A DNA stretch of 64,000 bases from Bacilli bacterium (GCA_017527675.1 JAFXPU010000002.1:70400-134399); one strand, 5' to 3'. Positions 2,530 through 23,724 are shown, numbered from the stretch's first letter. The notes: generated from the sequence alone by a model not told the origin. Numbers and translations: made by a program.

Positions 2530-5500
2530 TTAGTAATTATACATTTCTCTTGGAACTAAAGTATATGGATTTGATTTACTACCTGATCCATTATATATAT
2601 TTGAATCAAATACTAGGATAGGTCGTACATATTCAGCTCCAGATCCTGTTTCCCAAACATTATTTCTATTACCTTTCATACCAATGTTTCCAACTGAATT
2701 ATGATAATCATAGTAATCATATAACATTCTATGAATGCCAAATGAATAATTTGTAGCACTGGTATAAACATAACCACGTGACGCAATCCAATAATTTGCA
2801 TATTCAGTTGATCCATGTGGTTTTGCTGATAAATCATCTGTTGTACAATTGTTATTTTGACAATATGCCAATACAACCAATGTATGATCAGTTGCATATC
2901 CTAAATCTCCACCACCATCTGGTTCACTTGGATTACAACTTTCACCAGTTGAACATGACCATGGAACATTATAGTTTGAACCATCATATGCTCTTGTAGA
3001 AACAAGATTTTCTGTTGTTGTTGATGAATCATATCCAAAATGTCTTGATCCTGATGTATAACTACTGCTTTCATACTGAGCTGCTATTTCATTCAATACT
3101 TGAACACCCATTTTATATCCTTTATTTCCTTTTAAACATACAAACGTACTAGATAATTCATCAGAAATTGCATCAAATGTTCCATCAGAATTAATTCTAA
3201 TTACACGCCATAATGTTAACTCATTAGGAAATATAGTATTGCTACTATCACATCCAGTTTTATTTACATCTGTCGTAAATGACGTTGTTGGTGGTGTATA
3301 GCTTACATAATCTCCGACACTTATATAGTGTGCGTATAATGTTTTATTTTCAGCTAAATCCCATCTTCCTGATAATGTGTATTCTGAAACATCACCATCA
3401 GATGTATATAAATCCCCGTACTCTGTTACTACCCTATAGCCGCCTGTTGCAGAAGTAAACCAACCTATAAATAATGAATCGGCTTTTGATGCTGTTGGTA
3501 TTGTTCCTGGAGTTGAATTTCTTACACCTGTATACACATTTACTGAATTCTTTCGAGTGTATAATGTTCCAGTTCCAGATAAAGTTCCACCATTTGCATC
3601 AAATGTTATAGCTGCATTATTAATTCTATGTGATACACAACTACTTTCTGCAGCAGCATAATTACCATTAGCAGTAACACTTGCTTTTACGTAGTATTGG
3701 CCTACATTAGCTGGTGCAGTCCCAGCAGCACTAGCTCCATCTGATGTTGAAGTTTTTGTTGTACAACTACTATTTGTGTAATATGTATATGTTATTGTTC
3801 CACCTGTTGCTGGTGTTAATGTTGCAGTATTAGCACTTATAGCACTTCCAGTATATATTGCTGTTTTTGCACTTAATGTTAATTTTGTAATGTTAATTGT
3901 GTATGTTGCATCTTTTGTAGCACCAGAATTACTATCCGTTGCTGTTATAACTATTGAATAACTTCCACCCGCTTTACTTGCAGGTATTGTTATTACTCCA
4001 GCACTTGATACCGTTATATCAGAAGTTCCAGATTTTTTAGCATATGTATATGTTCCAGTTCCATTTGTCGCAGCAGTTACATTTGCTGTTTGAGCACTTG
4101 AACTAAATGATTTCTTTATAATTTGATTATTAAATACTAATGCATTAGGTATCCAACGCGCATATAATGTTGTTGCCGTTTTTTTATCATAATTTCTTGC
4201 TGATGTTAAATTTGCATTATAGTATTTTGTTCCGCCACTATCTGCTGCAGTATCATAATATCCTTGGAATGTATAGCCTGCTCTTGTTGGAGCAGATACA
4301 CTTATTGTTGGCATTGCATATCCATATCCAGCATATAATGTTGAACTTTGTCCTCCAGTACCGTTATTAACACTAAATGATACAGGATACTTTTTGATTA
4401 TCCATGTTTGCGTTGGAGATGTACTATCAAGTGTTGAATATGAATTATTATTATTTATTTCATATAACGTTGTTGGTAATGTAATAGTTACTGTTGAAAG
4501 TGATGGATATGTTTGAGGGGTTTTTAATTTTTCTAATGATGATATACTTGTTAGCATATAATTAGCATTTGTAACATTACTCATATCAAAACTACTTAAA
4601 TCCAGTATTTGTAATGAACTGCACATATTAAACATATATGTCATGTTTGTTACTTTGGATGTATCAAAATGACTTACATCCAAGCTTGTTAAGGAAGAAC
4701 AACCATCAAACATATACTGCATATCTATTACGTTGGATGTATCCCAGTTACTTACATCTAAACTTGTTAAGGAAGAACGATCAGTAAATATATGATTCAT
4801 ATACACAACCTTTGATGTATTAAATTGGCTTACATCTAAGTCTGCTAACGATGTACAAATTTGAAACATAGCATGCATATCTATTACGTTAGATGTATCC
4901 CAGTTACTTACATCTAAACTTGTTAATGATATACATTGATTAAACATTAAAGACATATTTGTTACATGAGATGTATCAAAATGACTTACATCCAAACTTG
5001 TTAAGGAAGAACAACCAGAAAACATGTGCTGCATATCTATTACGCTGGATGTATCCCAATTACTTACATCTAAACTCGTTAAGGAAGAACAACCAGAAAA
5101 CATGTGCTGCATATCTATTACGCTGGATGTATCCCAATTACTTACATCTAAACTCGTTAAGGAAGAACAACCAGAAAACATGCTACCCATATTTAACACC
5201 TTAGACGTATCAAAATGACTGACGTCTAAAGTTGTTAAAGAAATGTCACTATAAAACATACCATTCATATTCGTTACCTTAGACGAATTATATTTTGATA
5301 AGTCAATGGTTGTCAATGACTTTAATTGTGAAAACATATTTGATGCATTTTCATTTAAATATACTACAGCACCATCACTCCACCAATATATTGTTCCATT
5401 ATCATACCACATGTATATTGGTACAACAGAGTCACTTGTTGATACAATATGATCGGATGTCATATTTGCAGCTGTTGGAGCTGTTGTAGATTTTTGAATT

Positions 5501-7587
5501 GCAGTTATATTATTATCATTTAAAGTATAAACAGCACTGGAATTACCAGCTAATTGTTTCATTTTAGCATTAACATTTTTTCCAATATCAAATGTTGCTG
5601 TTTTATATACCCATCCAGCATATAATGTTGTATTTGCTGTTTTATTATATGTTCTAGCTGATGTACCATCAGCATTATAATATTTAGTTCCTTGAGTGTA
5701 ATCTGCATTATCATACCAGCCCATAAATAGGTAATTTGTTTTAGTTGGAGCTGTTGTATTTATTGCTGGCATATTAGCACCATATGTAGCTGTTACATTT
5801 GCACTTTGGCCACCTGTACCCCCATTTTTATTGAATAATACTGTATAAGTATTAGCCTTCCAGCCTGCATATAATGTTGTTGATGATGCTTTATCCCAAT
5901 TTCTTGCGCTTGTACCATCGGCATTATAGTACTTTTTAGCGCCTGATGCAGCATAATTGGCATTATCATACCAGCCCATAAATGTATAGCCTGTTCTTGT
6001 TGGAGCTGTTGTGCTGATTGCTGGCATTGGTGAATCGTATGTTGCTGTTACATTTGCACTTTGTCCACCAGTTCCGCCATTTGGACTAAATGAAATAGTA
6101 TATGTATTTGCAGTCCATTTAGCTTTTAATTTATATGTGTTATTTACAGTTGAATGATTTACGGATGTATCAATGTAAGTAGTAGCAGTTGATCCTCTTT
6201 CAAGTTTCATACCACTTATTTGAATATCTGAACTTCCAGCTGTATTACCAAAGTATATATTGGTTCTTTCATTCTTTAATCTAGCATTATTTTCTCCAGC
6301 TGTATCACCTGCAACACCATTAAATGTCATAGTATATCTAGTCCAATTGTTTGTTAAAGTAAATGTTGCCTCTTTATATGGAGTATCATTACCAACTTTA
6401 ATAACAAGTGAACCAGTTCCTTTTGCCCATACAGATACTGTATAAGTTTGGCCACTTGCTAAAGGAACATTACCTTGGAAAATATATTTAGTTGCAGTTG
6501 ATGAATTTGCTGGTATATTTATATATTTAGTAATAGCATTGGATGGTGAATCACTAATTGTCACAGCAGTTGCACCTGTAGAATTTGAATTCCAATATCC
6601 TCTATAACCATTACTGTTTGCTTTAATTGTTGGACTAGCTGTATTATATAGCAAGTTAGCATTAATATTAACACTTGCTTGATTATTTAGATTATTAGTA
6701 CCATCTGTCCATCCAGCAAATGTGTAACCTGTTTTTGAATATCCATTAGCTGTTAATGCTGTTGCTGTACCATAGTTAATTGTTTGATTAGCTGTTGAAC
6801 CGCTAGTACTTCCATTTCCATCAAATGTTACTATATAATCTGTTGGTCGCCATTGAGCATATAAATCAACTATTCCACCTGGCTCTTTAGTGAAATTTGA
6901 AACACTTTGAGCTTCAGTATAAAGTGTACTAGATCCTGGAGCATTCAAATTCCATGCAACAAATTCATAATTTGTTCTTGTGAATGCATTTGGTGTTAAA
7001 GTTGATGCTGTATTAAAGCTCATTGCTTGATTATTCATTGTTCCAGAACCATTATTAGCATTAAATCTAACATACCAAGTATTTGCTGTCCAATGTGCAT
7101 AATAAGTTGTATCAGAAGCAGGTACAGCAGTTGAATTTGTAACTTGTGTTCCACCTGATGTTGCAGTATACCAACCATTAAATGTATACCCTAATCTTGT
7201 AACAGGATCTGGATTACTTAAGGTGTTTCCGTAAGTATATACTTTAGTAATCTTTAAATTTTTCATATATGATGTTTTAGCAAATACTGTATCATCACCA
7301 CGATAGTCAGCTTTACCCATACGAAGAGTTTTAGTAGCTTGACCTGATGCAGCTGAATAAGTACCACTCATACTTATACTTGTATTTGAACCCGTTACTG
7401 TTAAAGTATATACTTTAGTAGATGCTGTCCATGTAAATGTATAAGTTAATGCCTTATTCATTGTTCCAATAGCTGTATCAGATACATCATCTACTGCATT
7501 ACTACCCATATATATTCTAAATTTATTATCCGTATTTATTTCAATATTTAATGTTTTAGCACCATCATTATAGTTACCAATTACCAA
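2530..7587 (-). CDS. C-terminal part of giant InlB-B-repeat/BspA-like surface protein (separated by in-frame stop)
   Basis: This frame is open from 7749 down to 2530 and is in the same frame as the 4,309-codon gene upstream; only one TAA (7750-7752) divides them. The first ATG after the stop is at 7585-7587, with no signal peptide or clear ribosome site, so independent function is doubtful. Order of domains: a ConA/LamG-like stretch near the start; several InlB B-repeats (Listeria-Bacteroides repeat, GYTFxGWY...LYAxW); a galactose-binding/CBM-like insert (about 6670-6130, begins NLLYNTAS); more InlB B-repeats; ten 26-residue BspA/DUF285-type repeats (about 5330-4540, unit LTSLDVSNWDTSxVIDMxxMF); another B-repeat and Ig-like modules; and a C-terminal domain (about 3310-2530) with LWRVI, YWIASR and VRPIL motifs resembling the DUF6273 type. 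No LPxTG anchor is present. It is likely the distal half of an adhesin. Confidence 0.8.
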   Translation of the reverse strand: MVIGNYNDGAKTLNIEINTDNKFRIYMGSNAVDDVSDTAIGTMNKALTYTFTWTASTKVYTLTVTGSNTSISMSGTYSAASGQATKTLRMGKADYRGDDTVFAKTSYMKNLKITKVYTYGNTLSNPDPVTRLGYTFNGWYTATSGGTQVTNSTAVPASDTTYYAHWTANTWYVRFNANNGSGTMNNQAMSFNTASTLTPNAFTRTNYEFVAWNLNAPGSSTLYTEAQSVSNFTKEPGGIVDLYAQWRPTDYIVTFDGNGSTSGSTANQTINYGTATALTANGYSKTGYTFAGWTDGTNNLNNQASVNINANLLYNTASPTIKANSNGYRGYWNSNSTGATAVTISDSPSNAITKYINIPANSSTATKYIFQGNVPLASGQTYTVSVWAKGTGSLVIKVGNDTPYKEATFTLTNNWTRYTMTFNGVAGDTAGENNARLKNERTNIYFGNTAGSSDIQISGMKLERGSTATTYIDTSVNHSTVNNTYKLKAKWTANTYTISFSPNGGTGGQSANVTATYDSPMPAISTTAPTRTGYTFMGWYDNANYAASGAKKYYNADGTSARNWDKASSTTLYAGWKANTYTVLFNKNGGTGGQSANVTATYGANMPAINTTAPTKTNYLFMGWYDNADYTQGTKYYNADGTSARTYNKTANTTLYAGWVYKTATFDIGKNVNAKMKQLAGNSSAVYTLNDNNITAIQKSTTAPTAANMTSDHIVSTSDSVVPIYMWYDNGTIYWWSDGAVVYLNENASNMFSQLKSLTTIDLSKYNSSKVTNMNGMFYSDISLTTLDVSHFDTSKVLNMGSMFSGCSSLTSLDVSNWDTSSVIDMQHMFSGCSSLTSLDVSNWDTSSVIDMQHMFSGCSSLTSLDVSHFDTSHVTNMSLMFNQCISLTSLDVSNWDTSNVIDMHAMFQICTSLADLDVSQFNTSKVVYMNHIFTDRSSLTSLDVSNWDTSNVIDMQYMFDGCSSLTSLDVSHFDTSKVTNMTYMFNMCSSLQILDLSSFDMSNVTNANYMLTSISSLEKLKTPQTYPSLSTVTITLPTTLYEINNNNSYSTLDSTSPTQTWIIKKYPVSFSVNNGTGGQSSTLYAGYGYAMPTISVSAPTRAGYTFQGYYDTAADSGGTKYYNANLTSARNYDKKTATTLYARWIPNALVFNNQIIKKSFSSSAQTANVTAATNGTGTYTYAKKSGTSDITVSSAGVITIPASKAGGSYSIVITATDSNSGATKDATYTINITKLTLSAKTAIYTGSAISANTATLTPATGGTITYTYYTNSSCTTKTSTSDGASAAGTAPANVGQYYVKASVTANGNYAAAESSCVSHRINNAAITFDANGGTLSGTGTLYTRKNSVNVYTGVRNSTPGTIPTASKADSLFIGWFTSATGGYRVVTEYGDLYTSDGDVSEYTLSGRWDLAENKTLYAHYISVGDYVSYTPPTTSFTTDVNKTGCDSSNTIFPNELTLWRVIRINSDGTFDAISDELSSTFVCLKGNKGYKMGVQVLNEIAAQYESSSYTSGSRHFGYDSSTTTENLVSTRAYDGSNYNVPWSCSTGESCNPSEPDGGGDLGYATDHTLVVLAYCQNNNCTTDDLSAKPHGSTEYANYWIASRGYVYTSATNYSFGIHRMLYDYYDYHNSVGNIGMKGNRNNVWETGSGAEYVRPILVFDSNIYNGSGSKSNPYTLVPREMYNY
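4540..5330 (-). repeat. tandem 26-residue (78-bp) BspA/DUF285-type repeats
   Basis: About ten units of 78 bp encode the pattern LTSLDVSxxDTSxVxxMxxMFxxCSS. Two consecutive units are identical: bases 5000-5104 match 5078-5182 exactly over 105 bp at a 78-bp offset, while other units have diverged. This indicates recent unit duplication inside an older array. BspA-type repeats are known in surface proteins that bind host proteins. Confidence 0.9.
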
Positions 7588-7749
7588 ATATCTATTTTTA
7601 GTTGTTGCAGGTTGATATACACCAGTAATTGTGAAATCATTATCCCAATCAATTAGGTAACCAGTGTCCTCATATTCACCAGCAGTATTATATGTTGAAT
7701 TTACTGTATTGCGATAATCATATGTAATTGTATATTTATTTGCTGTCCA

Positions 7750-10700
7750 TTATGCTGTTGCTGTAGCACCAAATGTTGATGCATTATAAGCAACATTAGC
7801 TGTATAGCTTGCACCCGCAGCATAATTAGTTGAACCTATCTTCCAACTACTCCAAGAATGTCCTGTTTTTGTAAATCCATTTGTTGCTAAATTTACTGAT
7901 TGATTACTTGTTGTAGTTGAATTAGTATTCATATATACTGTTTTAGTTGTATTAGCTGTACTACCACCAGTATGTGAATTACCAGCATAAGTAATTGTTA
8001 ATACGCGACTATAAACACCATAATATGTTAAATTTGTTTCATTATATGTTGGAGTTACTGTTCCGGTTGCCGTTGTTGAAGCAGCAACATCAGCAGTTGT
8101 TGCCGTAGTATCTGCTCTATAACCTAAAGCTGTCCAATTAGATATTGCAGTCAATTTTGGAGCAGTTACAGCAGTTATTTTATCCGTTTTATATGGATTA
8201 TATTTTTGTTCTATATTAGAACTTGTAGCTTTATTAACACCTGATTTAAATGTAACATTACGTTTAAATACAGCATATAATTTAACTGTTGCACCACTTG
8301 TTGATGATAAATTTGTTACACTTTGACCATCTGTATATGTTACAGTAGTTCCATCTTGAGTTGTTGACCAACCAGCAAATGTCCATCCATTAGGTGCAGT
8401 TCCACCTAATGCTGCATATGTTGTTAAGGCCTTACTTGCATCATATGTATGTGACGAAGTTGTTGTAAATTTAGTAGTACCTGCTGTTGTTGAGTTATTA
8501 CCTTGATAATATTCAACAGTGTACTCAATTGGAATCCATCTTGCATACAATGTTGTATCACTTGCTTTATTCCAAGTTCTTGCACTTGCGCCAGCAGCTG
8601 TATAGTATTGTGTTCCACCTGTAGCTGCAGATGTATCATACCAACCACCAAATGTATATCCTTCTTTTGTTGGAGCTGTTGTGCTTATTGTTGGCATTGT
8701 TGAACCATATGTTGCTGTTACATTTGTACTTTGTCCGCCAGTTCCACCATTTGGACTAAATGATACTGTGTATGTATTTGCTGTCCAGTTTGCTGTTAAT
8801 GTAGTTGCACCAGCACCATAAGTAAATACTTGAGATGCATTTTCAGGTGTACCATTTGTTGCATCAAACATATTAGAATAAGCAACATACCATGTTACTG
8901 GATTAGAACTTGTTGCCGCTGTTCCATTTAAGTATACATGACCTAAAGATGAGAATGTACCAGTTGAACCACATTGATGTTTATAAATATACACTTCAAA
9001 TTCGCCAGTTCCAGCCGTTGGAGTTAACCACTCTATTGTTCTACCATCTCCAGTTGCATTTGAAGCATATTGAATACTATATCCTACTGGAATCTTAGCT
9101 ACTATTACATGATAGAATAATGCATTGGCATAAGAAGCCGTATTTTGATAATATCCACCTAATCCAGGAGATGCAGTTCCAGCTGTAGTTATTTGAATCA
9201 TCTTAGAAGCATTTAACATTGGATCATCACTTGATTTATCTATTCTTGTATGTGTAACTGTTCCATTTTGAGAATTATTATATACAACCATGCTATTTGA
9301 TGATGATGTAAATGTTTCATCATTATATTTTGGCGTACCATATTTTGTTACAATACCACTACCTGATTTTGTCCAACCAGTAAATGTATAACCAGTTCTT
9401 GTTGGAAGTGGTAACACTTTTAATGAATTATAATCTTGTGTATATGTTGTATTTGATGTACTTCCATTGAAACTTCCACCATTTGGTTTAACAGTAAGTG
9501 TATATTGATTAACTATCCATTTTGCATATAATGTTGCACTGGCAGTTGGTTTATATTTACCACTTGTTAAAGTTACAGCAGTAGTTAAGGCTTCATTTGT
9601 ATACCAGCCATCAAATGTATATCCTGTTCTTGTTGGTGTTGGTAAAGTAAATGAATTACCTGTCATTGTAACAACACTTGCTGGTGTTACTGAACCACCA
9701 TTTGTTTCAAATGTTGTTTTATAGAATACTTTACTTGAAGTAGTTCTATTTCCAGCCGCATCTTGTACAGCTAAATACCAAGTTCCACCATCATCAACTG
9801 TCTTTGTTTGAGTTGTACTTGTTGCACTTGTGATAGTTGTATAAGTAACGTTTGTTGATGTTGGATTTGATTTACCAAAGTAATATCTTGTTACACCTGT
9901 ATTATCACCCATTGTTAATGTTGCTGTTTGAGATACCGCAACATTATTTGTTGATGTAATTGTTGCGGTTGATGGTACAGTTGTATCAACTTTAGAAATT
10001 GTTACTTCCTTATAAGCAGTATTTCCAGCATCATCAATTACCCATACATAATATTTTTGATTTGCTTTTAAATCACCAATTCTTCTTGTTAAATCAACTG
10101 ATGTTGCATGGGTTAAATTATCAATTCTAGCCCATAAATTAACTGTTGAAGTAACATTTCCACTTGGTCCTGGGATACCACCACTATAAGCCTTATAAGC
10201 ACCTATAGCATACCACCAGCTTGATCCAATAGAACCATCTATTAATGTATGTGTATTAGTACTTGATAAAGCTAATCCACCCCAACTATTTCCAGTCCAA
10301 TCAACATGAACTGCAGAATAACCTGTAACTGAATTTGTAGTTGTTACTGGATCACTTGTTTGAATCCATCTATTATATTGAGTAGCTGATACATTAGGAT
10401 ATTGTAACAAGAATTCCCAGTTAGTTGTATTTTTATAATTTGCAATATTTCCTAATACTGAATATTTATCCACTGTATTACTTGTTTTTGCTTCAGCACC
10501 ACTACTTGCACTACTATATAATACACTACCCCAGTGAGTATTATGATGGAATACTCTAGCCCATGCTGCATTTAATTCATACTTAGTTTCTGTTGTTGTT
10601 TCAACAGTTGATACTACTGGTATCCATTCTGTTGGTGCAGTAGTAGATGTCGTTATATTATATCCTACTATTCCCGAACCAGCATCTGTTGCATTAAAAT

Positions 10701-13700
10701 CAACATAGTTTGCCAAATCCCATGTATTTGATGGAGTAGTTGTTACAACCACTGGGCTAATATCGTCAACCCATCGAGCATATAATGTTGTTGATTCTGT
10801 TTTATTCCATGTTCTTGCACTAGACATATCAGCATTATAGTATTTTGTTCCACCTGTTGCAGCAGATGTATCATAATATCCTTGGAATGTATATCCAGCT
10901 TTAGTTGGAGCAGTTGTGCTTATTGTTGGCATTGCAGAACCATATGTTGCAGTTACATTTGCACTTTGTCCACCAGTTCCACCATTTGGACTAAATGAAA
11001 CAGTATAAGTATTTGCTTTCCATATAGCATATAAATTAACATTTCCACTTGTTGCTAAATTTTTTACAGTTTGACCATCAGCATAAGCTGTTGATGTTGA
11101 GCTTACTTTATAGAATCTTACATTTTTAACATAAGCATTGCATCCTGCTTGTGCTCTAAATAATAAGTATTTATTAATACTTCCATCTCCTGATGATCCT
11201 AAAGTAAATCTTACAGTAATATGTCTATATGCACTAGTTAAAGTAATATTATTACCACCATCAGCTGATGTACCATTTGTAACAGTATCACCATCAATTT
11301 GTGTAACACTGCTTACTTTCAAGTATCCAGATGCACCATAGAAGAAGTTTGTTAATGTTCCACTACCTTTTACATCAAATTCAACTTGATATACATCACC
11401 TGCTGCAAATGGAGCATTTATTGTCCATTGTTTAACATTACTATATGTTGTTCCAGCTGAATTATCTTTACTATATTCAGAACTATCAGAGATTATACCT
11501 ATATCGCTATTAGATGTAGACCATCCCATAAATGTATAGCCTGTTCTTGTAAATGCATTTGTTGTTAATGCCTTAGCAACATCATATGTCATTGATAAAT
11601 TAGACATTGTGCCTGTAGCATCACTTGCATTTTTGTTAAATACAATTGTATAGCCATTTGGTGTCCATTGAGCATATAATGTTTTATCTTCAGTCACATC
11701 CCATGCACTAGCAGTTGTATAGCCTGATACTCCTGTTCCCGTAAATGTGCCATCTGCATTTAGGACTTTTGAACCACTAGTTGCAGCTGTATACCAGCCA
11801 GTTAATGTGTAGCCTGTCTTTGCAGCTGTTGGTATTGTTCCAGCTGTTGAACCTTGAACATTTGTATATACTCCTGTTGAATTCTTTCTAGTATATACTG
11901 TACCTCCACCTGATGTTCCTGTATTTTTATCAAATGTCAACTTAGCATTATTGATTGCAAATGTCTTAGTTGTTGTACCCGTATAGAATGCTTTTGTTGT
12001 TGAATTATATGCACTCTTACCACTTATTGTTGCTGTTGCGGTTCCAACATTCGTGTTATTTGTATAACCAACAGTATAATCAGTATTAACTGCTAATGTA
12101 GTTGATCCATCTTTTACTGTTAATGTTGTAAATGTTAAAGCAGAACCTGTATATATCTTGCTTGTTGGAGTTGCAGTTATAGTTAAATCTCCAACTGCTT
12201 TTGTCCAATGTGCATACAAGGTTCCATTAGCACTAAATTGTGTTGTTGATGCACTAGAAGTTAATTTACCGTTTGCATCAATATATTGTGTTCCACCTGA
12301 TGCTGTTGTATAGTATCCAGCAAACGTATATCCTGTTCTTGTTGGAACTGTTATTCCATTTGATGTTGTACTCATTTGCGTTGTTGCAGCAGAATCTGTA
12401 TAGTAACCTGTATTATATTTTTCATATATTGTTGCGGTTCCAGCACTTGTTGCACTTTGATTATTTAATGTAATTGTATAAACATTTGGTTCCCATCTAG
12501 CATATAATGTTAAATCTTGAGCTGGCGCAGAAATTGAGTTATATGTAGTACTTGAAGTTATTGTACTATTGTTATTTATTACTATATTTCCAATATAACC
12601 ATTAAAGTTATTACCACTTGGTGTAGTTGGACTTGATACAGCTTCTCCACCTACAAATAATGAGTTGGTAGCATTGTATCCAAGTGCACCAGATGTTAAA
12701 GCAGCAGATTTTTTATCTAATGTTCCATCAATATATAAATATACATATTCTCCATCAAATATATAATCAAAATCATGCCATCCTGCTGATAAAATAGCTA
12801 ATGTAGTATTTGATGTAAATGATTTATAACCTACACCTGAATCATAACCATAAACGATAAATTTACCGCTTTCAATTCCAATTTGAATTCCACCAGTTTC
12901 AGTAGATGAATATATTTTTCCGCTTGATGATGACCAATTACTTGAATAAACAGATGTATGAATACTTATTGCATCAGTATAGTTATATTCACGACCATAA
13001 TTAATATAGTCACTAGAACCAGTTAAATCGGCATACCATCCTTTAAATGTATATCCAGTTCTTGTTGGAGTTGGTAAATCTGCATAAGTTGTGCCATATT
13101 GAACACTCTTAGTAGTAGTTGATACACTACCTCCATTAGCATCAAATGTTAATGTATAATTATTTTTTGTATATTGAGCATATAGTGTTTTATTTGCAAT
13201 TGCATCCCATGCTTTTGTTGTTGTATATCCTGATACTGCTGATCCAGTAAATGTACCATCAGCATTTAACACCTTAGTTCCACCTGTCTCAGCGGTATAC
13301 CAACCAGCAAAAGTATATCCTACTTTACTTGCGCTTGGAACTGCACTGGCAGTAGTATTTTGAATTCCAGTATATAAACTAGTTGCACCTTTCTTTGTGT
13401 ATAATGCTTTTGTAACAGTTGTTCCTGTTATTACACCACCAGTTGATGCATTAAATGTTATTTTAGCATTATTGATTGCATAATTTACTGTTGTTGTTCC
13501 TGTGTAATATGCTTTTGTTGTTGAATTATATACATTTTTACCTGTTATTGTTGCAACAGCTGTTCCAACATTTGTATTATTAGTAAATGCAATAGTATAA
13601 TCTGTATTATTTACTAATGTTGTTGAACCATCTTTAACAGTTGATGTTGGTGTTTTTGCTGTTCCATCATATATATAACTTGTTGGACTTACTGTATTTG

Positions 13701-16700
13701 TTAAATCTGATACTGGTTTTGACCAATGTGCATATAATGTTCCTGCTGCTGTGAAGTTTGTATTACTTGCTGAACTTGTTAATTTACCAGCTGCATCAAT
13801 ATACTGAGTACCACCATTAGCAGCTGTATAGTATCCCTCAAATGTATAGCCTGTTCTTTCTGGTACTGTTATACTATTGGCTGTTGTACTCATTTGAGTT
13901 GTTGCAGCAGAATCAGTATAGTAACCAGTATTATATTTTTCATAAATTGCAGTTGTTCCAGCAGTTGTTGCATCTTGATTATTTAATGTAATTGTAAATA
14001 TTGTTGGAGTGCATTGAGCATATAATGTTTTATTTGCTGTTACATTCCATGCACTTGCAGTTGTATATCCTGATACAGCTGTTCCAGTAAATGTTCCATT
14101 AGCATTTAATACTTTTGAACCACTACTTGATGCAGTATACCAACCATTAAATGTATAACCTGTCTTAGTTGCCGTTGGTATTGTTCCAGTTGTTGTATTT
14201 TGTATTCCTGTATATACTACAGTAGCACCTTTCTTTGTATACAATGTAGCTGTTCCAGATACACTTGTACATGTTCCTTTATTGAACGTTAATTTAGCAT
14301 TATTAATTGCATAATTAATAGTTGTTGTTCCAGTATAATATGCTTTTGTTGTTGCATTATAAGCATTTTTACCAGTTATTGTTGCTACTGCTGTTCCAAC
14401 ATTTGTATTATTTGTAAACGCAATTGTATAATCTGTATTTTTAACTAATGTTGTTGATCCATCTATTACTGTTTCTGTTGGTGTTTTAGCAGTACCATCA
14501 TATACATAACTTGTTGGATCAATTGAATTTGTTAAATCTGATACTGGTTTTGACCAATGTGCATACAATGTTCCAGCATCACTAAATTGAGTTGCTGATG
14601 CACTAGATGTTAATTTACCATTTGCATCAATATACTGAGTTCCACCATTAGTTGCTGTGAAGTATCCTTCAAATGTATAACCTGTTCTAACTGGAACAGT
14701 TATTCCATTTGCAGTTGTACTCATCTTATTAGATACTGTACCACTACTATTATTTAAATAATAACCATCGGCATATTTTTCATAAATCGCAGTTGTTCCA
14801 GCAGTTGTTGCACTTTGATTATTTAATGTTATTGTATAAACATTAGGTGTCCAAATAGCATATAAGATTTTAGAACCTGTTGGTGCTAAATTTAAAACCT
14901 CTTGTCCATCAGAATACTCAACATTTCCAGATGCACTTGAAGACCAACCTTGGAATGTATAACCTGTTCTTGAATATCCTAATGTAGTTAAATTCTTAGC
15001 CTCATCATATGTCATTGCTAAGTCAGCCATTGTACCTGTTGCATCACTTGCATTTTTATTAAATACAATTGTATATGAATTGGCTGTCCAATTTGCTGTA
15101 TATGTTCTATTACCAATTGATCCTTTTGCAATAGTTACTGTTGTGTTTGTATTACCAGTTAATCCAGTTCCAGACCAACCTTTGAATGAGTATCCAGTCT
15201 TTGTTGGATTATTTAAAGTAAATGTAGTGGTTGTAACATTATAACTTTCTGGATTTGCTGTTGCAACAGAACCACCATTTAAATTATATGTAATAGAATA
15301 TGTATTTGTTGTTCTAGTAAAATTAGCTGTTATAGTTGTATTTGCTGTTATAGTTCCAGATGTTGATGACCAGTTACTAAATGCTGTTGTATATCCTGTT
15401 GCATCCTTCTTAGTAGCTGTTATAGTTTTTAGTGTTGTAGAACCACTTTTTACTGTTAATACATTAGTTGCTGTTGAATATGTTACACCACTAATTACAT
15501 TATATGTACTAGAATTAACAGTACCATAGTTTGTATCATTTGAATTAGTTGTTAATGTAACTACTGTTACAGCCTTTGTAGCATTATCTGAAGTAATATA
15601 GTTTGTTGTATCAGAGTTAATTGCTCTAACATAAACAGTTCTACTACCAGCTGTTGATGTAATTGTTGATAAATAATTAACACCACTTGTAGCAGATGTC
15701 CAATTTGTACCATCAATACTTATTTCATAGCCAGTTGCATTAGAACTATTAGTCCATGTAACTTTACCTGCTGTTGATACAGCCAAACTTGTTACAGGAT
15801 TAACTTTTTGCTTGTTAATAGTAAAGTTAAGATCAGTACTTCCTGAATAATAAGCTCTAGTTGTTGAGTTATAAGCATTACTCATTGTAATAGTTGCAGT
15901 TGCAGTGCCAGCATTTATATTATTAGTATAACTAATTGTATAATCTGTTCCTGCAGTTAAGACAGTATCTCCATCTTTTACTACAGCTGTTGGAGTTTTT
16001 GCACTTCCATCGTATGTATATTCAGTTTCTGATAATTCGATTGTTAAATCAGAAATATTTTTTTGCCAATGAGCATACAATTTTATAGATTTTGTTGGAG
16101 TATAACTAACATTTGCATCAGCAACCTTAGTACCTCCAGCAGCTTCCGTATACCAGCCTTGGAATGTATAACCTGTTTTGGCATCAGGCGTTCTAGCAGT
16201 TGTAGATGGAACCGTTGAGTAAGTATAAGCACTAATTGTTAAATCTGCATTACTTACAAGATCATAATATCCTACACGATATCTTAATCTAAATTTTTTT
16301 GTTGTAGCATAACTAATATTGCCATCAGTATCAGTTGCCTTAACGTGTAAGTAATATATTCCATACGATTTAGTTAATGATAATTTTGTTCCACTTGTAA
16401 TTGAAGTCCATCCAGATTCAGGTGTAGCATCATTTTCATCAATTACATATTCTAAAGATGCTAGACCACTGCCATCATCAACTGCACTTACAGTTGGAGT
16501 AAATGTTCCACTTGTTGAATTCCAACCAGCAGTTGCATTATAAACGTTGCTTAAATAACTAGTTGTACTACCATTAGTAACACTTATAGTTGGACCTGTT
16601 TCATCAGCCCATACAGCATATAAAATCTTAGATCCTGATGTTGCTAAATTACTTACAGATTGACCATCTGTATAAACTACATTACCTGTTGGTGTTGTTG

Positions 16701-19700
16701 CCCATCCTTTAAATGTATATCCTGTTTTTGTATAGCTATTTAAAGTTAAATTTTTAGCTACATCATATGTCATTGATAAATCAGCCATTGTACCTGTTGC
16801 GTCTTCATCATTCTTATTAAATACAATTGTATATGTATTAGCTGTCCAATTAGCTGTATATGTTTTATTTCCTGTTGAACCCTTTGTAATACTTACACTA
16901 GTTTGTGGTGTAGTACCATTTGATCCAGTCCATCCAGCAAATGTATATCCTGTTTTTGTTGGATTTACTAAGGTAAATGTTGCAGTTTCAATATTATAGG
17001 TTGTCTTTGGATTCGTTTGAGTTCCACCATCTAAGTTATAGGTAATTGAGTAATTTACTGGTACCCAATTAACATATATTGTTACAGTCTTATCGCCAGT
17101 TGCTAAATTTGCACCAGCAAAGCCATTGGCATCATAGTCTTGACCATTATCAAAATAACTTGTTCCTGTACCATTAGCTGATGTATTATATTGTTCATTA
17201 TCTTTTGGTAAATATCCTTCTTTGACTAAATTAATATTAGAAGAACTATCTGGATTTAATAATCCCGCTCCTGATGCTACATAAGTATCAGTATTTACTG
17301 AATTATTTACCTTACCACCATAAACACCTGATAGGAATTTAGTATCATTATTATAAGTTACTAATGAACCTGATGTTGAATATCCTTCTCCGTGTGATGA
17401 AGCCAATGATCCACCATTCATATCATATTGAACATATAAATAGTTTCTTCTATAGTATAGATTTATCACTCTTGTACCATCAGCTAAAATAGTTGTTGTT
17501 GTAACAGCTCCACTGGTTGGTTTTGTTGTATTTCCTGTTGTATATCCATCGACATAAGTAAAACCAGCAATTGTTTTCTTTAGATTTGCTAAAGTTACTG
17601 ATGATGCTGTTGTTCCTGTTAAATTATCTGTTGAATTTAAGGTATATGTATTTGTACCTAAATTATGTACATAATGATTTACTTTATAAGCTGTATTTGT
17701 ATTAGCAGCAAATGTTGCAGTTATACTTTTTGCAGCACTGATAGTTCCTGATGTTGATGACCAACTATCAAAATGATATCCTGTTTTAGCTGTAGTAGTT
17801 ACAGTACGTCCATCTGATAATGTTAAAACATTAGAACTTGTTGAATATGTTACACCGTTTATTACATATAAAGTTGTTGGACTTACTGTACCCATTGTTG
17901 TTGAATTACTTGATACAGTTAATTTTCTGATTGTTACTGCTTTTGTTAATTCTGTTGATGGACCATCATAGTTAGTGGTATCTGAATTAACTGCTCTTAC
18001 ATGTACTGTTTTATTAGAATTTGTGCCTGTTAATTCTGTTAAGAAATTATCTCCAGATGCTGCTGGTACCCATGTTGTACCATCAAAACTTATTTCATAA
18101 CCAGTTGCATTACTTGAACCAGTCCATGTTACAGCTCCATTTGTTGCAACTTGTAAATTTGAAATTGGTTCTACTGTTTGTTTATTAACAGTAATTGTAT
18201 ATGTTGCAGTTTTTGTAGCACCTGAATTATTATCAGTTGCTCTTATAATTACAGTATAAGGAGTTACAGTGTTTGCTGATTTATTACCAGGAATAGTTAT
18301 TACTCCGGCAGCAGATACTGTTATGTCAGCATCTGAACCATCTGCAACTTTTTCATATGTATATGATCCTGTTCCATTTGTTGCAGCTGTTACATTTGCT
18401 GTTTGATTACTTGTTGAATAAATTACTGCTATTGATTTATTATTAAATATTAATTCATTTGCTGTCCATTTTGCATATAAATCAAATGTACCTGATGTTG
18501 CTAGATTTATTACTTCAGCTCCATCTGCATAAGCTACTGTACCTGTTGTTGATGTTGCCCATCCAGCAAACGTATAACCAGTTCTTGCAAAAGCATTTGC
18601 TGTTAAATTCTTAGCTACATCATATGTCATTGATAAATTAGACATTGTACCTGTAGCATCGTTTGCATTTTTATTAAATTTAATTGAATATGTATTTGCA
18701 GTCCAATTGGCTGTATATGTTTTATTACCTGTTGATCCTTTTGTAATACTTACACTAGTTTGTGCTGTTGTACCATTTGATCCAGTCCATCCTGCAAATG
18801 TATATCCTGTTTTTGTTGGGTTTACAAGTGTAAATGTTGCAGTTTCAATATTATAGGTTGTCTTTGGATTTATTTGCGTTCCGCCACCTAAATTATAAGT
18901 AATTGAATAGTTTACTGGTTCCCAATTAACATATAATGTGATTGTTTTATCACCAGTTGCTAAATTTGCTCCAGCAAAATCGTTAGCTTCATATGTAGTA
19001 GTTGATTGATTATAACCAATACCACTACCATCAGATTTAGTATTCCACTCAGCATTATTAATAGCTTTATAACCATTTTTAATAATGTTTATAGCAGTAG
19101 AATTGCTATAATTATGTAGACCATTAGATGAAATTCTATATGTATTTAAATCAACATCACCAACTTTACTACCATAAACACCTCGTAAGTGATTAGAATT
19201 ATTATTATATGTTACAAGTGTTCCTGATACATCATATCCCTCACCATGGTTAGATGATAAGGAACCACCATTCATATCATATTGAATATATAAATAGTTT
19301 CTTCTGTAATATAAATTAATAACTCTTGAACCATCAGCTAAAATTGTTGTTGTTGTTACTGCTCCACTTGTTGGTTTTGTTGTATTTCCTGTTGTATATC
19401 CATCTACATAAGTAAAACCAGCTATTGTTTTCTTTAGATTTGCTAAAGTTACTGATGATGCTGTTGTTCCTGTTAAATTATCTGTTGAATTCAAGGTATA
19501 TGTATTTGCACCTAAATCATGTACATAATGATTTACTGTATAAGCAGTATCTGTATTTGGTTCAAATGTTGCTGTTATAGTTGAATTAGCACTGATAGCT
19601 CCAGATGCTGATGACCAACTTACAAAATGATAACCAGTTGCTGGTGTAGCCGTAATAGTACGTCCATCAGATAATGTTAAAACATTACCACTTGTTGAAT

Positions 19701-20679
19701 ATGTTGCTTTATTAACAACATATACCATTGTTGGACTAACTGTACCCATTGTTGTATCGTTTGATGATACTGTTAATGTTCTAATTGTAACAGATTTAGA
19801 TACTACTGATGATGGAGTATTATAGTTTGTAGTATCTGAATTAATTGCTCTAACTTGTACTGTTTTATTTGCATTAGTACTTGTTAATTCAGTTAAATAA
19901 GTTGTCCCACTTGTTGAACTAGTCCATGTTGTACCATTATCAAAACTTATTTCATAACCTGTTGCATTGCTTGAATTAGCCCAAGTAACCTTACCATTTT
20001 TATTTACAGCTAAATTGGTTACTGGATTAACTGTTTGCTTTCCAATTGTAATTGTATATGTAGCTGTATCAGTTTTGCCTGTTTCAGCATCAGTTGCTCT
20101 TATTACAACTGTGTATGTACCTGCATTTTTACCTGCTGGTATTGTAACACTACCATTTGCTGCTACTATGATATCAGACTCACCTGATACTTTTTCAAAT
20201 GTATATGAGCCAGTACCATTAGTTGGTTCATCTACATTAAAACTAATAATACCTGTTGAATATGTCGGCGTAACTGTTTTATCAGCAAATACTATTTCAT
20301 TTGCTTTCCAACCGGCATATAAAGTTGTAGCTTCACCTATATTCCAAGTTCTAGCACTAGTACCATTAGCTTTATAATATTGTGTTCCTTGAGTATAATC
20401 TTGATTATTATACCAACCCATAAAAGTGTAACCTTGTCTAGTTGGTTTTGTTGTAGATATTGCTGGCATATCATAACCATACTTTGCGGTTACACTGGTA
20501 CTTTGTCCACCGGTTCCACCATTTGCGTCAAATGATACAGTGAAACTAGGTGATGTAATTGTAATTTTTATTTTTCTAGTATATGTTTGAGTATACTTAC
20601 TATAAGTTAAAGGTATAAGAATAACAGAAACTAAAAACAAAACGGCTAATGCATACCATTTTATATTTTTTTTCTTCAT
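7750..20679 (-). CDS. giant InlB-B-repeat surface protein, N-terminal 4,309 residues, with SipW-type signal
   Basis: Huge secreted protein. The N-terminus has one hydrophobic segment (about residues 9-27) followed by [11 protein letters not shown], similar to the SKY motif of SipW-dependent TasA-family substrates encoded just upstream. The rest is built from Ser/Thr/Asn/Gly-rich beta modules: InlB B-repeats ([13 protein letters not shown]...GYTFxGWY...LYAGW), Ig-like modules (YTITI), Fn3-like modules ([14 protein letters not shown]), MucBP-like segments ([10 protein letters not shown]), MBG-like segments ([12 protein letters not shown]), a LamG-like insert at about residues 2563-2707, a CBM-like insert at about 3058-3196, and a Trp-rich insert at about 3350-3550. 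Very low Cys and Lys content fits an extracellular stalk. A good ribosome site (GAGGTG) precedes the ATG. It ends at a TAA (7750-7752) just before WTANKYTIT, where neighbouring repeats read on, so the stop looks secondary. Adhesin or biofilm role is inferred. Confidence 0.88.
11650..14850 (-). repeat. three ~0.84-kb repeats ([20 protein letters not shown] module set), one displaced by a LamG-like insert
   Basis: The module series beginning YTITLNNQ, through [13 protein letters not shown], an MBG-like domain (YDGTAKTPT...NNTNVGTA) and TLYTKKGA, occurs three times. Copies one and two start about 841 bp apart (near 14819 and 13978). Copy three starts near 12472; the extra distance is filled by an InlB repeat carrying a LamG-like insert (about 12990-12560). 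Confidence 0.8.
16600..20300 (-). repeat. two tandem ~1.85-kb super-repeats in the giant surface gene
   Basis: Two copies (about 18450-20300 and 16600-18449) encode the same string of modules: Ig-like YTITI module, Fn3-like module, MGTVSP module, MucBP-like NHYVH module and two InlB B-repeats. Near-identical stretches, for instance around 17501-17650 and 19355-19504, lie 1,854 bp apart (618 codons); the offset is 1,857 bp around 16768/18625, one codon of drift. Conservation is patchy: very high in the middle, lower in the flanks. Confidence 0.85.
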
Positions 20680-20710
20680 TTCTTACACCTCATTTCTAAT
20701 TACTTATTAT

Positions 20711-21205
20711 TTATATTTCTTTTTGTGTGAATTTTACTTCTAAATCTATTTCATGATCTGTTATTTCGCTTGTTCCAAGTGGAGCTTTAAATGTTAAGGT
20801 ATGTTCCCTTTGCCTATTAGCAGATGATGCATCAAATTCTCCTACATTGGAAAATGTTATTTTATTACTTGAAGCACTTTTATAACTTCCACCATCAATC
20901 TTGACTTGAACACCAGATGGCACATTTTTCAAAACTACATCATAACTCGTTGCAACATCTGAATTACTCTTTACTTTTAATTTATATATCTGAGTAGTCG
21001 TACCAGACACAATATCTAAATCATCCGATGGAGTTACTGTTGTATCTAATTCAACATCCCATAAAGCTACTTCAACCGTTGCTCTTTTAGATACAGTTCC
21101 AGCATATTTTGATAAAGTATAAATTGAAAAACTAAAAGTTAAAAATACAAAATATATGATCAATAATGATATTATTTTTTTCTTTTTTTCTTTATCTAAT
21201 TTCAT
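20711..21205 (-). CDS. TasA/camelysin-like secreted protein with SipW-type signal
   Basis: A 164-residue protein with a hydrophobic segment at about residues 10-29 followed by TLSKYAGTVSKRATVEVALW, the pattern seen in SipW-dependent proteins of the TasA/CalY family. The remainder is a small beta-rich domain (TQIYKLKVKSNSDVATSYDV, then GVQVKIDGG). Known members of this family are cut by SipW and assemble into amyloid-like fibres in biofilm matrix. It sits 20 bp downstream of a SipW-like peptidase gene and 31 bp upstream of the giant adhesin gene, so joint expression is likely. It is shorter than B. subtilis TasA (261 residues) and could be an anchor or minor subunit; that is inference. Confidence 0.8.
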   Translation of the reverse strand: MKLDKEKKKKIISLLIIYFVFLTFSFSIYTLSKYAGTVSKRATVEVALWDVELDTTVTPSDDLDIVSGTTTQIYKLKVKSNSDVATSYDVVLKNVPSGVQVKIDGGSYKSASSNKITFSNVGEFDASSANRQREHTLTFKAPLGTSEITDHEIDLEVKFTQKEI

Positions 21206-21225
21206 ATTTTTAACTCCTTTCTTTT

Positions 21226-21687
21226 TTATACTTTTTTATTAGGTAAAAATAATATTACTAATATGCCCATTATAAATATTGCTGTTAAAACTATATAATT
21301 TCTAAGTATTTTATTAACAATATTTATAAATCTAAATTTAAATACTACTTTACCAATAATTTTATTTTTACTAATCGGTTTATCTTCTGTATTGTTAGCA
21401 TCACCTTTAGCAATTACTTCTTTTTTTGTTATTTTAACAATGCGATGTGTTACATAATTATTGTTTTCATCTTTATATGTAACAATATCATTTTTTTTAT
21501 AATTTCTTTTTTCTTTAATTATTATTAAATCATTAATTTTTATTTTAGGCTCCATTGAACCAGTTTGCACTTGAAATAATCTATATCCAAAAAAAGATAA
21601 CCTTAAAGCTGAAAAAATATTTAATAGTAATATTATTGATACAACAAATATTAAAATTGAACTAATTATTACTTTAAATTTCTTCAT
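21226..21687 (-). CDS. sipW: signal peptidase I, SipW/ER type (second copy)
   Basis: Membrane signal peptidase, 153 residues, with an N-terminal transmembrane helix (about 7-26) and a second one near the C-terminus (about 131-148). Active-site features match the ER/archaeal class that uses Ser and His rather than Ser and Lys: QTGSMEP (Ser44), VTHRIVKI (His81), and AKGDANNTEDKP (Asp96, Asp102). SipW of Bacillus is of this type and processes TasA and its partner. The gene overlaps the upstream TasA-like gene by 14 bp and is followed 20 bp later by another SKY-type protein, so it most likely serves these neighbours. It is a shorter paralogue of the peptidase at 23092-23724. Confidence 0.9.
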   Translation of the reverse strand: MKKFKVIISSILIFVVSIILLLNIFSALRLSFFGYRLFQVQTGSMEPKIKINDLIIIKEKRNYKKNDIVTYKDENNNYVTHRIVKITKKEVIAKGDANNTEDKPISKNKIIGKVVFKFRFINIVNKILRNYIVLTAIFIMGILVILFLPNKKV

Positions 21688-22342
21688 AAGTTATTCTTAT
21701 ATTTAATTTAAATTCGCTAGTCATATTTTTTCCAGCTATATTATCGTTTTCATCATCATCAAACCATTTCCAATCTAGGGAATAATTATCTGATTCATTT
21801 ATATTTAATTTAGAATATTCAGTTTGAAGTTCTTCAAATGTTACCCAATTATCATTATCACCTATAATGTATTGATTATTTTTCTTTAAGCGATATTTCA
21901 TATTTATTTTATATTCACTTTCTTCATACATTAGGATTTTATATTTAACGTTTATATTTGAATTATTATGGATAACAAATTGATATGAGTTTGATACACC
22001 TGGAGCTATTTTATTTTCAAATTCATAAGCAGCATTTTCAAAAATTCTTAGATTTTGTTGAAATAAATAATCACCATTTTTATCACTAACAAATAGTCTA
22101 CCTAATACTTTAAAGTCTTTGTCTTCATCAAATTCAGGTAATTCAGCAGTATCACCTTTAACATCTTTACAACCACAATCTTCAATGTTAAATACATCAA
22201 CATTTCCTGTTGGCATCAAACATTTTTCATTGGTTTTTCCTATTTTTAGAAAAAATAATAAAATTATAATTATTATTATTAGTAAAATTATTATTAACCA
22301 TGTTAATTTATTACTACTCTTTTTTTCAGTTTGATTTTCCAT
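21674..22342 (-). CDS. membrane-anchored TasA/camelysin-like protein
   Basis: A 222-residue protein with an N-terminal transmembrane segment (about residues 14-32, mostly Ile/Leu) and an outside domain. The sequence APGVSNSYQFVIHNNSNINVKY and the terminal DWKWFDDDENDNIAG are typical of TasA/camelysin-related domains (the APGxxxxFxxxxxNxS pattern also occurs in the TasA-like protein upstream). The SKY motif is absent and the segment just outside the membrane holds CLMPTG and CGC cysteines, so it may stay anchored instead of being cleaved. The last 14 bp overlap the SipW-like gene, showing translational coupling. I suggest an anchor or assembly partner, by analogy with TapA, with low certainty. 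Confidence 0.7.
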   Translation of the reverse strand: MENQTEKKSSNKLTWLIIILLIIIIIILLFFLKIGKTNEKCLMPTGNVDVFNIEDCGCKDVKGDTAELPEFDEDKDFKVLGRLFVSDKNGDYLFQQNLRIFENAAYEFENKIAPGVSNSYQFVIHNNSNINVKYKILMYEESEYKINMKYRLKKNNQYIIGDNDNWVTFEELQTEYSKLNINESDNYSLDWKWFDDDENDNIAGKNMTSEFKLNIRITYEEI

Positions 22343-22372
22343 AATTATTTTTCCTTTCTATTTTTAATTAGT

Positions 22373-22428
22373 TTCCATAAGTAAAACAGTTAAACTATTT
22401 TACTTATGGAAGTTAATTAATAACTTCC
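22373..22428 (-). promoter_or_regulatory. paired overlapping RNA hairpins between tasA-like gene and downstream genes
   Basis: A perfect 14-bp inverted repeat (22373-22386 with 22398-22411, TTCCATAAGTAAAA and its complement) overlaps by four bases a second hairpin (22408-22415 with 22421-22428, GGAAGTTA/TAACTTCC). Neither is directly followed by a strong U-tract on the minus-strand transcript. They lie just after the abundant-subunit candidate gene (22449-23054). They could stabilise or process the mRNA, or partly terminate it. Confidence 0.6.
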
Positions 22429-22448
22429 TTAATTACCATTAATTAATA

Positions 22449-23054
22449 TTAATTAATATGTGTTGTAATTGCAGCACCTGGTCGAGTTTGAACACCTGTA
22501 ATTGTTAAACCAATTGTAAGTGTTTTAGCTGCTTTACCATCAGTAGTATCAGCTGAATCACCATTAGTTGTTTCATATGCCCATTCCCAATAAATTGGTA
22601 CAGCAATACCAGTTGAATCTTTAGATTTGATTTGACCAGTAATTGTACTAGTACCTGGAGTTAATGGAACAGTATGTTGTTCATCTTTATAGAATTTTAA
22701 ATTAGTTGGTTTATCAGCAATTGAATCTAATGCTACAGTAAAGTCAACACCTACTTCACTATTTGGATTAGTTAAAGTAATTGAGAATGAACCAGCAGTA
22801 CCTGGAGCAATTCTTTGTTTTCCATCAACTTTTGCTAATGTAGTTGTATCAGCAGTTGTTGATAAATTAACATCAAATGTAGCTGATCCAGAATTATCGG
22901 TATCAAATGCCCATTTAGCAACTGTTGCAGTTCCAGATTTACTTACTTCGCCTGTATATTTAGCAAATGTTCCTCCTACAAAACCACTTGTTAAACCAAC
23001 TAATAAAAGTAACACCATAAACCCTATTGATTTTTTATTCACTTCTTTCACCAC
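22449..23054 (-). CDS. TasA-like major fibre/matrix protein candidate
   Basis: A 201-residue secreted protein of the TasA/camelysin type. The hydrophobic signal (about residues 10-28) ends GGTFAKYTGEVSKSGTATVA, matching the KYxGxVSKxxTxxVAxW pattern of SipW substrates, with the mature part starting near the A-KY site. The body is Thr/Ala/Ser-rich and beta-like, with APGTAGSFSITLTNPNSEVGVDFTV as in TasA, and ends without a membrane anchor. A strong ribosome site (GGTGGTGAAAG) precedes the start. It follows the larger SipW-like peptidase by 37 bp and is followed by a strong hairpin pair, as expected for a highly expressed subunit. Fibre formation is inferred from the family. Confidence 0.82.
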   Translation of the reverse strand: MVKEVNKKSIGFMVLLLLVGLTSGFVGGTFAKYTGEVSKSGTATVAKWAFDTDNSGSATFDVNLSTTADTTTLAKVDGKQRIAPGTAGSFSITLTNPNSEVGVDFTVALDSIADKPTNLKFYKDEQHTVPLTPGTSTITGQIKSKDSTGIAVPIYWEWAYETTNGDSADTTDGKAAKTLTIGLTITGVQTRPGAAITTHIN

Positions 23055-23091
23055 CTTTCAAATATATATGTAAAATTCCCTGCAGGAAATA

Positions 23092-23724
23092 TTACAACTG
23101 ATTTAAGTTAGAAGAATCATTATCTTCTTGCATCTTAGCTAATTCTTTAGCTTTCTTAAATTCTTCAAATTCTTTTAATTCTGCTTCACTCATTTTTTTC
23201 TCCTTTTTAGAAGATGTCTTATCTTGAATGATGTAGATAAGAACACAAATGATAAATAAAGTCATCATCATAACTGTAAATCCTAATGGTTTTTGAATAA
23301 ATAAAATAAAATTACCTAATTTAGCATATCTTTTAACATATTTTCCTTCGATGTTTTTCTTACATGCTAATTCTTCATCTTTAACGTTGTTACTATCACC
23401 TTTAGTTTCAAAACATTTTTCATTTCCTTTTTTTACCACTTTAATAATTCTGTGAGTAGTAACTAAATTATCTTTATCTCTAAAAGCAATAATATCATTT
23501 TTCTTTAATTTATTAATATCTGTTTTTTTAATAAATATTAAATCCCCTACCATAATATTTGGTTGCATTGAACCAGATAAAACTGCGAATGGTTTATAAC
23601 CAAATACACTTGGAACTCTATTAGGTTTTAATTTTGATTGAGCTATTATATAAATGTTTATTAACAGTATCAATCCAAGTATAGAAATTACTATCCACTT
23701 TAATGTCTTTAAGACTATTTTCAT
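23092..23724 (-). CDS. sipW: signal peptidase I, SipW/ER type (first copy)
   Basis: A 210-residue membrane signal peptidase and first gene of the surface locus. One N-terminal membrane helix (about 8-28), catalytic VLSGSMQPN (Ser52), TTHRIIKV (His91) and ETKGDSNNVKDEE (Asp110, Asp116), then a second helix (about 148-166) and a charged cytoplasmic tail of about 40 residues (KKEKKMSEAELKEFEEFKKA) with coiled-coil character. The Ser/His pair places it in the SipW/ER class. It likely removes the signals of the TasA-like protein immediately downstream and perhaps of the giant adhesin. The tail, absent from the second copy, is an unusual addition. A separate promoter lies upstream (23791-23820). 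Confidence 0.92.
   Translation of the reverse strand: MKIVLKTLKWIVISILGLILLINIYIIAQSKLKPNRVPSVFGYKPFAVLSGSMQPNIMVGDLIFIKKTDINKLKKNDIIAFRDKDNLVTTHRIIKVVKKGNEKCFETKGDSNNVKDEELACKKNIEGKYVKRYAKLGNFILFIQKPLGFTVMMMTLFIICVLIYIIQDKTSSKKEKKMSEAELKEFEEFKKAKELAKMQEDNDSSNLNQL

Follow-up and report, generated by a model that had tools for sequence, protein, structure and literature searches.

TasA fibres are scaffolds of the biofilm matrix. In their native form they are donor-strand polymers and not cross-beta structures: the donor strand comprises residues 28-38 of TasA, and F29 packs onto the next subunits (PMC9674648). They are initiated by TapA, which donates an N-terminal strand of its own and of which residues 44-57 are enough to initiate fibres and for biofilm formation (PMC10151520). 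We analysed a related locus in the genome of a gut-type Bacilli bacterium (GCA_017527675.1), in a stretch of 64,000 nucleotides (nt) that is referred to here as the window (contig C24, 70400-134399, part of a 1.13-Mb assembly). The minus strand of the window (23724-20711) encodes a SipW-type peptidase (SipW1), a TasA-like protein (TasA1), a membrane-anchored TasA-like protein, a second peptidase (SipW2) and a second TasA-like protein (TasA2), directly followed by a giant repeat gene. We propose that this locus specifies a sortase-independent, TasA-type donor-strand fibre with a giant adhesive protein among its subunits, and we put the probability of this reading at about 0.55. The amyloid nature that a first-pass annotation of the window had ascribed to TasA fibres does not agree with the native TasA structure.

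The locus resembles tapA-sipW-tasA of Bacillus subtilis in its predicted SipW-dependent subunits, aromatic P2' residue, N-terminal donor strand and fibre-starting donor protein (PMC9674648, PMC10151520). It differs in that no TapA family member and no TasA/camelysin Pfam match was found, and in its two SipW genes, anchored TasA-like protein and giant repeat protein. The sipW-tasA/capP/calY system of Bacillus cereus likewise combines two TasA-like subunits with an accessory starter protein and is sortase-independent, but it has one SipW, no giant adhesin and a CapP of other domain make-up (PMC13082335). In sipW-bsaABCRSD of Clostridium perfringens, sipW also adjoins the major fibre gene, whereas neither a giant repeat protein nor a second SipW is described and a two-component system lies inside the operon (PMC7395162). 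Archaeal threads and bundling pili are donor-strand filaments cut by an endoplasmic reticulum (ER)-type signal peptidase, with a donor-only cap proposed, but they are archaeal and have no giant repeat protein and no matching gene set (PMC9715654; PDB 7ueg). A functional likeness to chaperone-usher pili (FimA/FimG, PapE), which the TasA1 model matches, lies in the donor-strand shaft, the tip subunit that enters first and the minor adaptor. The FimH tip is an acceptor, whereas the tip here would be a donor, and no chaperone or usher occurs among the genes of the locus. Both the chaperone-usher and the sortase readings were rejected because their defining parts are missing, namely chaperone and usher in the one case and an LPxTG signal on the giant in the other. 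In its working the locus would correspond to TasA/TapA and, in formal terms, to a tip-adhesin pilus; its family memberships make it an ER-type-signal-peptidase-linked, TasA-related, formally unclassified fibre locus. The open-access literature (subscription literature was outside the scope) yielded the SipW/TasA, CalY/CapP and BsaA systems, and none with a giant repeat protein or an anchored TasA-like base.

Gene content and conserved order of the locus

The genes named by the first-pass annotation were all present, on one strand and closely spaced, with successive gaps of 49, 106, -14, 20 and 31 nt. SipW1 (23092..23724, 210 amino acids (aa)) and SipW2 (21226..21687, 153 aa, overlapping the anchored gene by 14 nt) both scored above the cut-off of TIGR02228, the archaeal/ER-type signal peptidase I family (99.5 and 85.8 bits; cut-off 51.85 bits). 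The 190-bit threshold of NF046067, the strict SipW equivalog of the B. subtilis type, was not reached (109 and 67 bits). Alignment showed the catalytic pair Ser-His in both (GSM, THR) and Ser-Lys in the ordinary LepB of the genome (TSM, KRI), which is encoded separately on contig C13. Loci with two SipW genes recur among the relatives (L075, L080, L081, L094, L101) and in other families of the class (L126, L127, L132-L134). A third SipW-linked region of the same genome lies just outside the window (C24:38734-61125; L021, L022), where a giant open reading frame (ORF) of 5479 aa is flanked by two long SipW-fusion genes, each adjoining a TasA-like gene; the fusion at L021:8334-9539 lacks the catalytic Ser and His.

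The expanded SipW/TasA-type arrangement had been expected to be linked in related genomes as well, and its order indeed recurs. The common order, (SipW)-TasA1-anchored protein-SipW-TasA2(-TasA3)-large protein, was found with variations in different genera of the family and also in further families of the class. A second locus of the same genome, on contig C8, encodes TasA1, an anchored protein, SipW, two TasA-like proteins and a 717-aa protein with the site TYS↓RYAKT (the arrow marks the predicted cut). Searches with the anchored protein matched 60 of 291 family genomes at E ≤ 1e-3 (18 of these scored below 1e-20) and, at 1e-6, 14 of 395 genomes sampled from the wider class, spread over five families. 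By their record names, the matches are metagenome-assembled genomes of uncultured Bacilli, Clostridia, Erysipelotrichaceae and the like, several of them derived from the rumen. The commonest type of terminal protein carries List_Bact repeats (342-2177 aa); others have DUF6273-like or DUF4832/4874 domains.

In the window, the terminal gene encodes a List_Bact/InlB-B-repeat protein of 4309 aa (7750..20679, minus strand) with 19 stretches of PF09479 (5.9e-104). The first-pass annotation had drawn this gene as far as 2530. The frame is open that far but is not a single ORF, since a TAA at 7750-7752, within repeat sequence, splits a frame of about 6050 codons (4309 + 1739). The 1739-codon continuation (2530..7749) lies in the same frame, has no start at its head and encodes repeats, DUF285/PARCEL and a C-terminal domain (PF03382, 1.5e-69; PF09479, 7.5e-45). 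Giant and continuation are most likely one interrupted frame, because WTANKYTI immediately past the stop resembles the repeat linker WTANxY, which occurs four times in the first part. Neither an LPxTG-type sortase signal nor a C-terminal membrane segment was detected on the giant or on the 25 intact terminal proteins scanned, which leaves the N-terminus as the sole visible means of attachment; sortases are encoded elsewhere in the genome.

The shared predicted cleavage site and the TasA-like proteins

Predicted SipW-type sites were found in TasA1 (22449..23042, start GTG at 23042 or 23054; TFA↓KYTGEVSK), TasA2 (20711..21205, 164 aa; TLS↓KYAGTVSK) and the giant (TYS↓KYTQTY), with an aromatic P2' residue in TasA1 and TasA2 (TFA↓KY, TLS↓KY). 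An SKY signal had been ascribed to the whole locus; it holds for these three proteins but not for the anchored protein (21674..22342, 222 aa), which has an N-terminal membrane helix and no cleavage motif. Across the collected loci, the strict motif occurred in 20 of 26 terminal proteins, 45 of 73 TasA-like proteins and none of 31 anchored proteins. The controls, taken from within the same loci, were 155 further proteins whose N-terminus has a hydrophobic stretch; 21 carried the motif, and more than half of these were, by eye, unlabelled members of the module or duplicate records. On these counts the motif is shared above chance. The looser pattern small-x-Y/F was present in the terminal protein of all 26 family loci examined (25 by pattern and one by eye); in several of the 25 the pattern had taken an earlier register, and visual inspection supplied the site.

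SKY is better understood as P1 followed by the two residues with which the mature donor strand would begin, so that cleavage signature and strand start coincide. By analogy, the K-Y of TasA1, TasA2 and the giant would be equivalent to the start of the TasA donor strand. On this reading the peptidase would free a subunit with its donor strand and would not anchor the giant; of the earlier proposal that the same class of peptidase releases or anchors the giant, the SipW-type site is thus retained, and release with a free donor strand is preferred to anchoring. Phenylalanine at P2' is incompatible with LepB, and Escherichia coli LepB processes such sites poorly (PMC10269814), which by homology supports SipW dependence here.

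The small proteins proved to be related to one another: hhalign joined TasA1 to TasA2 (99.3%, E 3.9e-20) and to the C-terminal sandwich domain of the anchored protein (97.5%, E 7.1e-12). Sequence searches of the TasA1, anchored-protein and TasA2 profiles against PDB chains gave no meaningful match. An AlphaFold2 model of TasA1 built from 20 sequences had a predicted local distance difference test (pLDDT) score of 76.6, with residues 26-40, the presumed donor strand, unstructured and of low confidence. In a Foldseek search of the PDB the best matches of this model were donor-strand pilins: ranks 1 to 3 went to a FimD-pilus complex (6e14), the CS20 pilus (8eht) and the fibre of TasA (8aur), and FimA and PapE came next. 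The match to 8aur had a probability of 0.96, an E-value of 0.014 and a template modelling (TM) score of 0.39. Structural modelling lends moderate support to a TasA-like fold.

Proposed assembly and competing explanations

From the observed gene content, gene order and conservation, catalytic residues, N-terminal motif, lack of other anchors and conserved hairpin behind TasA1, we infer a route that comprises SipW cleavage, strand exchange, tip/base polarity, adhesion and an effect of the hairpin. SipW1 and SipW2 would cut (T/S)-x-(A/S)↓K-Y directly behind its small residue and thereby free a mature N-terminal strand starting with K-Y on TasA1, TasA2 and the giant. The freed strand would enter the groove of the next TasA-like subunit, as in TasA/TapA. 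The giant, with a presumed donor strand and without a TasA domain, would be a donor-only starter, able only to begin a chain, and would end at the outer tip; a donor-only cap subunit moving outward has been proposed for archaeal threads (PMC9715654). TasA1, the presumed major subunit, would form the shaft and TasA2 a minor adaptor. The uncut anchored protein, which would offer a groove and lack a free donor strand, would serve as an acceptor-only base that accepts the final strand and keeps the fibre attached to the cell, while the hairpin would keep the major subunit in excess of the products of the downstream genes.

Several results weigh against this assembly. The TasA/camelysin family PF12389 had no match in the genome, with B. 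subtilis matching as a control, and none among the 20 aligned members; strict TasA/CalY membership of the small proteins was therefore not borne out. The Foldseek E-values of TasA1 were modest (2.5e-3 to 1.4e-2) and its TM-scores low (0.32-0.39). In the structure comparison suggested in the first-pass annotation, TasA1 matched donor-strand pilins including the TasA fibre; the model of the anchored protein, with an N-terminal helix (12-34), is a generic beta-sandwich whose matches are unspecific, and the bundling pilin of Pyrobaculum (7ueg) appeared at rank 43. The SipW-dependent signal family TIGR04088 had no match in the genome at E 10, and weak ones in three relatives (best 0.035). Several terminal giants from further families of the class carry ordinary-looking signals (L126, L127, L131, L134), so that a giant with a donor strand would be a lineage-level variant. 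Finally, the frame of the giant is broken in this assembly.

The most serious competitor, though distinctly less probable than the donor-strand fibre, is a TasA-type fibre system with which the giant shares only its export, being a soluble or loosely bound matrix protein that takes no part in strand exchange. All the evidence for a common signal and for linkage also fits this explanation. TasA2 and the terminal proteins do have hydrophobic positions +12 and +14 after the cut in common, but this register was matched in 156 of 5000 shuffles, and the weak support that this gives to a common donor strand counts in favour of shared export. Shared export alone fits poorly with the finding that none of the 25 terminal proteins has another anchor and that most have a beta-strand-like mature N-terminus. 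It is improbable that the giant's N-terminal hydrophobic segment remains uncut as a membrane anchor: the giant has no other anchor, and an uncut N-terminal helix serves the anchored protein encoded in this locus, but the small-x-aromatic site is kept in terminal proteins and absent from anchored ones, and SipW genes adjoin. We regard decay of the locus, with the giant a pseudogene and the system unused in this strain, as similarly unlikely. The TAA inside the repeats speaks for it, whereas no further in-frame stop occurs in the 12.9 kb before or the 5.2 kb after it, as would be the case for a recent break, an error of assembly or a variant of the strain. Signal and repeats are also kept in the first 4309 aa, and a shorter product could work, given that terminal proteins of the relatives measure 342-2177 aa.

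If the donor-strand fibre is real, Gram-positive bacteria would possess a donor-strand pilus whose base, shaft, adaptor and tip are put together with neither a sortase nor a chaperone-usher apparatus. This would account for the retention of giant repeat proteins that lack a cell-wall anchor on the surface of many uncultured Bacilli from gut and rumen. It would also give the conserved aromatic P2' residue a rationale, since the donor strand would begin there: assembly would maintain the residue and SipW would recognise it. Only tentatively do we extend this to a widespread Gram-positive analogue of tip-adhesin pili, in which a giant donor-only tip and an anchored base might be combined, in some genera, with a phosphatase-like enzyme domain displayed outward at the far end.

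The hairpin behind TasA1 and variant loci

The gap between TasA1 and the anchored gene (22343..22448, minus strand) contains a hairpin with an 18-bp stem (z -5.8). A hairpin was found at this gap in 27 of 27 comparable loci, always with z < -2 (median -5.2), while 75 control gaps had a median z of -1.3 to -1.4, with 25 below -2 and 6 at or below -4. Ten related sequences share a 20-bp stem in which five pairs show compensatory changes; this covariation belongs to a related subgroup and not to that of the window, whose MAFFT alignment gave no consensus fold and is probably misaligned. Rfam holds no family for the hairpin. An intrinsic terminator was rejected, as the hairpin has no U-tract and a terminator scan found none, and so was a weak preQ1-II match inside SipW1 that lay far below the Rfam threshold. 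By analogy, the hairpin would act in the mRNA to yield more of the major subunit than of the minor ones, an outcome comparable to that of the read-through terminator behind bsaA, which passes part of transcription to the minor genes (PMC7395162). Across the 27 gaps and at 22343-22448, the upstream arm is often able to pair with a second, smaller hairpin, giving two exclusive folds that may act as a regulatory switch.

In related genera, a tyrosine-phosphatase-like PF13350 domain with an intact HCxxGxDRTG motif lies at the C-terminus of terminal giants of TasA loci (L082:1885-8274, L087:9721-16254, L089:9388-14730, L100:1632-8009, L102:1306-7713, L105:10503-16988 and L106:11252-16972; L097 and L104 by motif). 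Judged from sequence, these giants would be exported and possibly fibre-borne phosphatases. At L018:9215-11483 (G024 C2), a TasA locus without SipW runs on into two genes named by eye, one for a surface protein of Cna-B/thioester-like type and one that is sortase-like. Two further loci (L093:3979-9691 and L103:7514-12108) have one SipW, five or more successive TasA-like genes and no adjoining giant, which suggests amplification of subunit genes.

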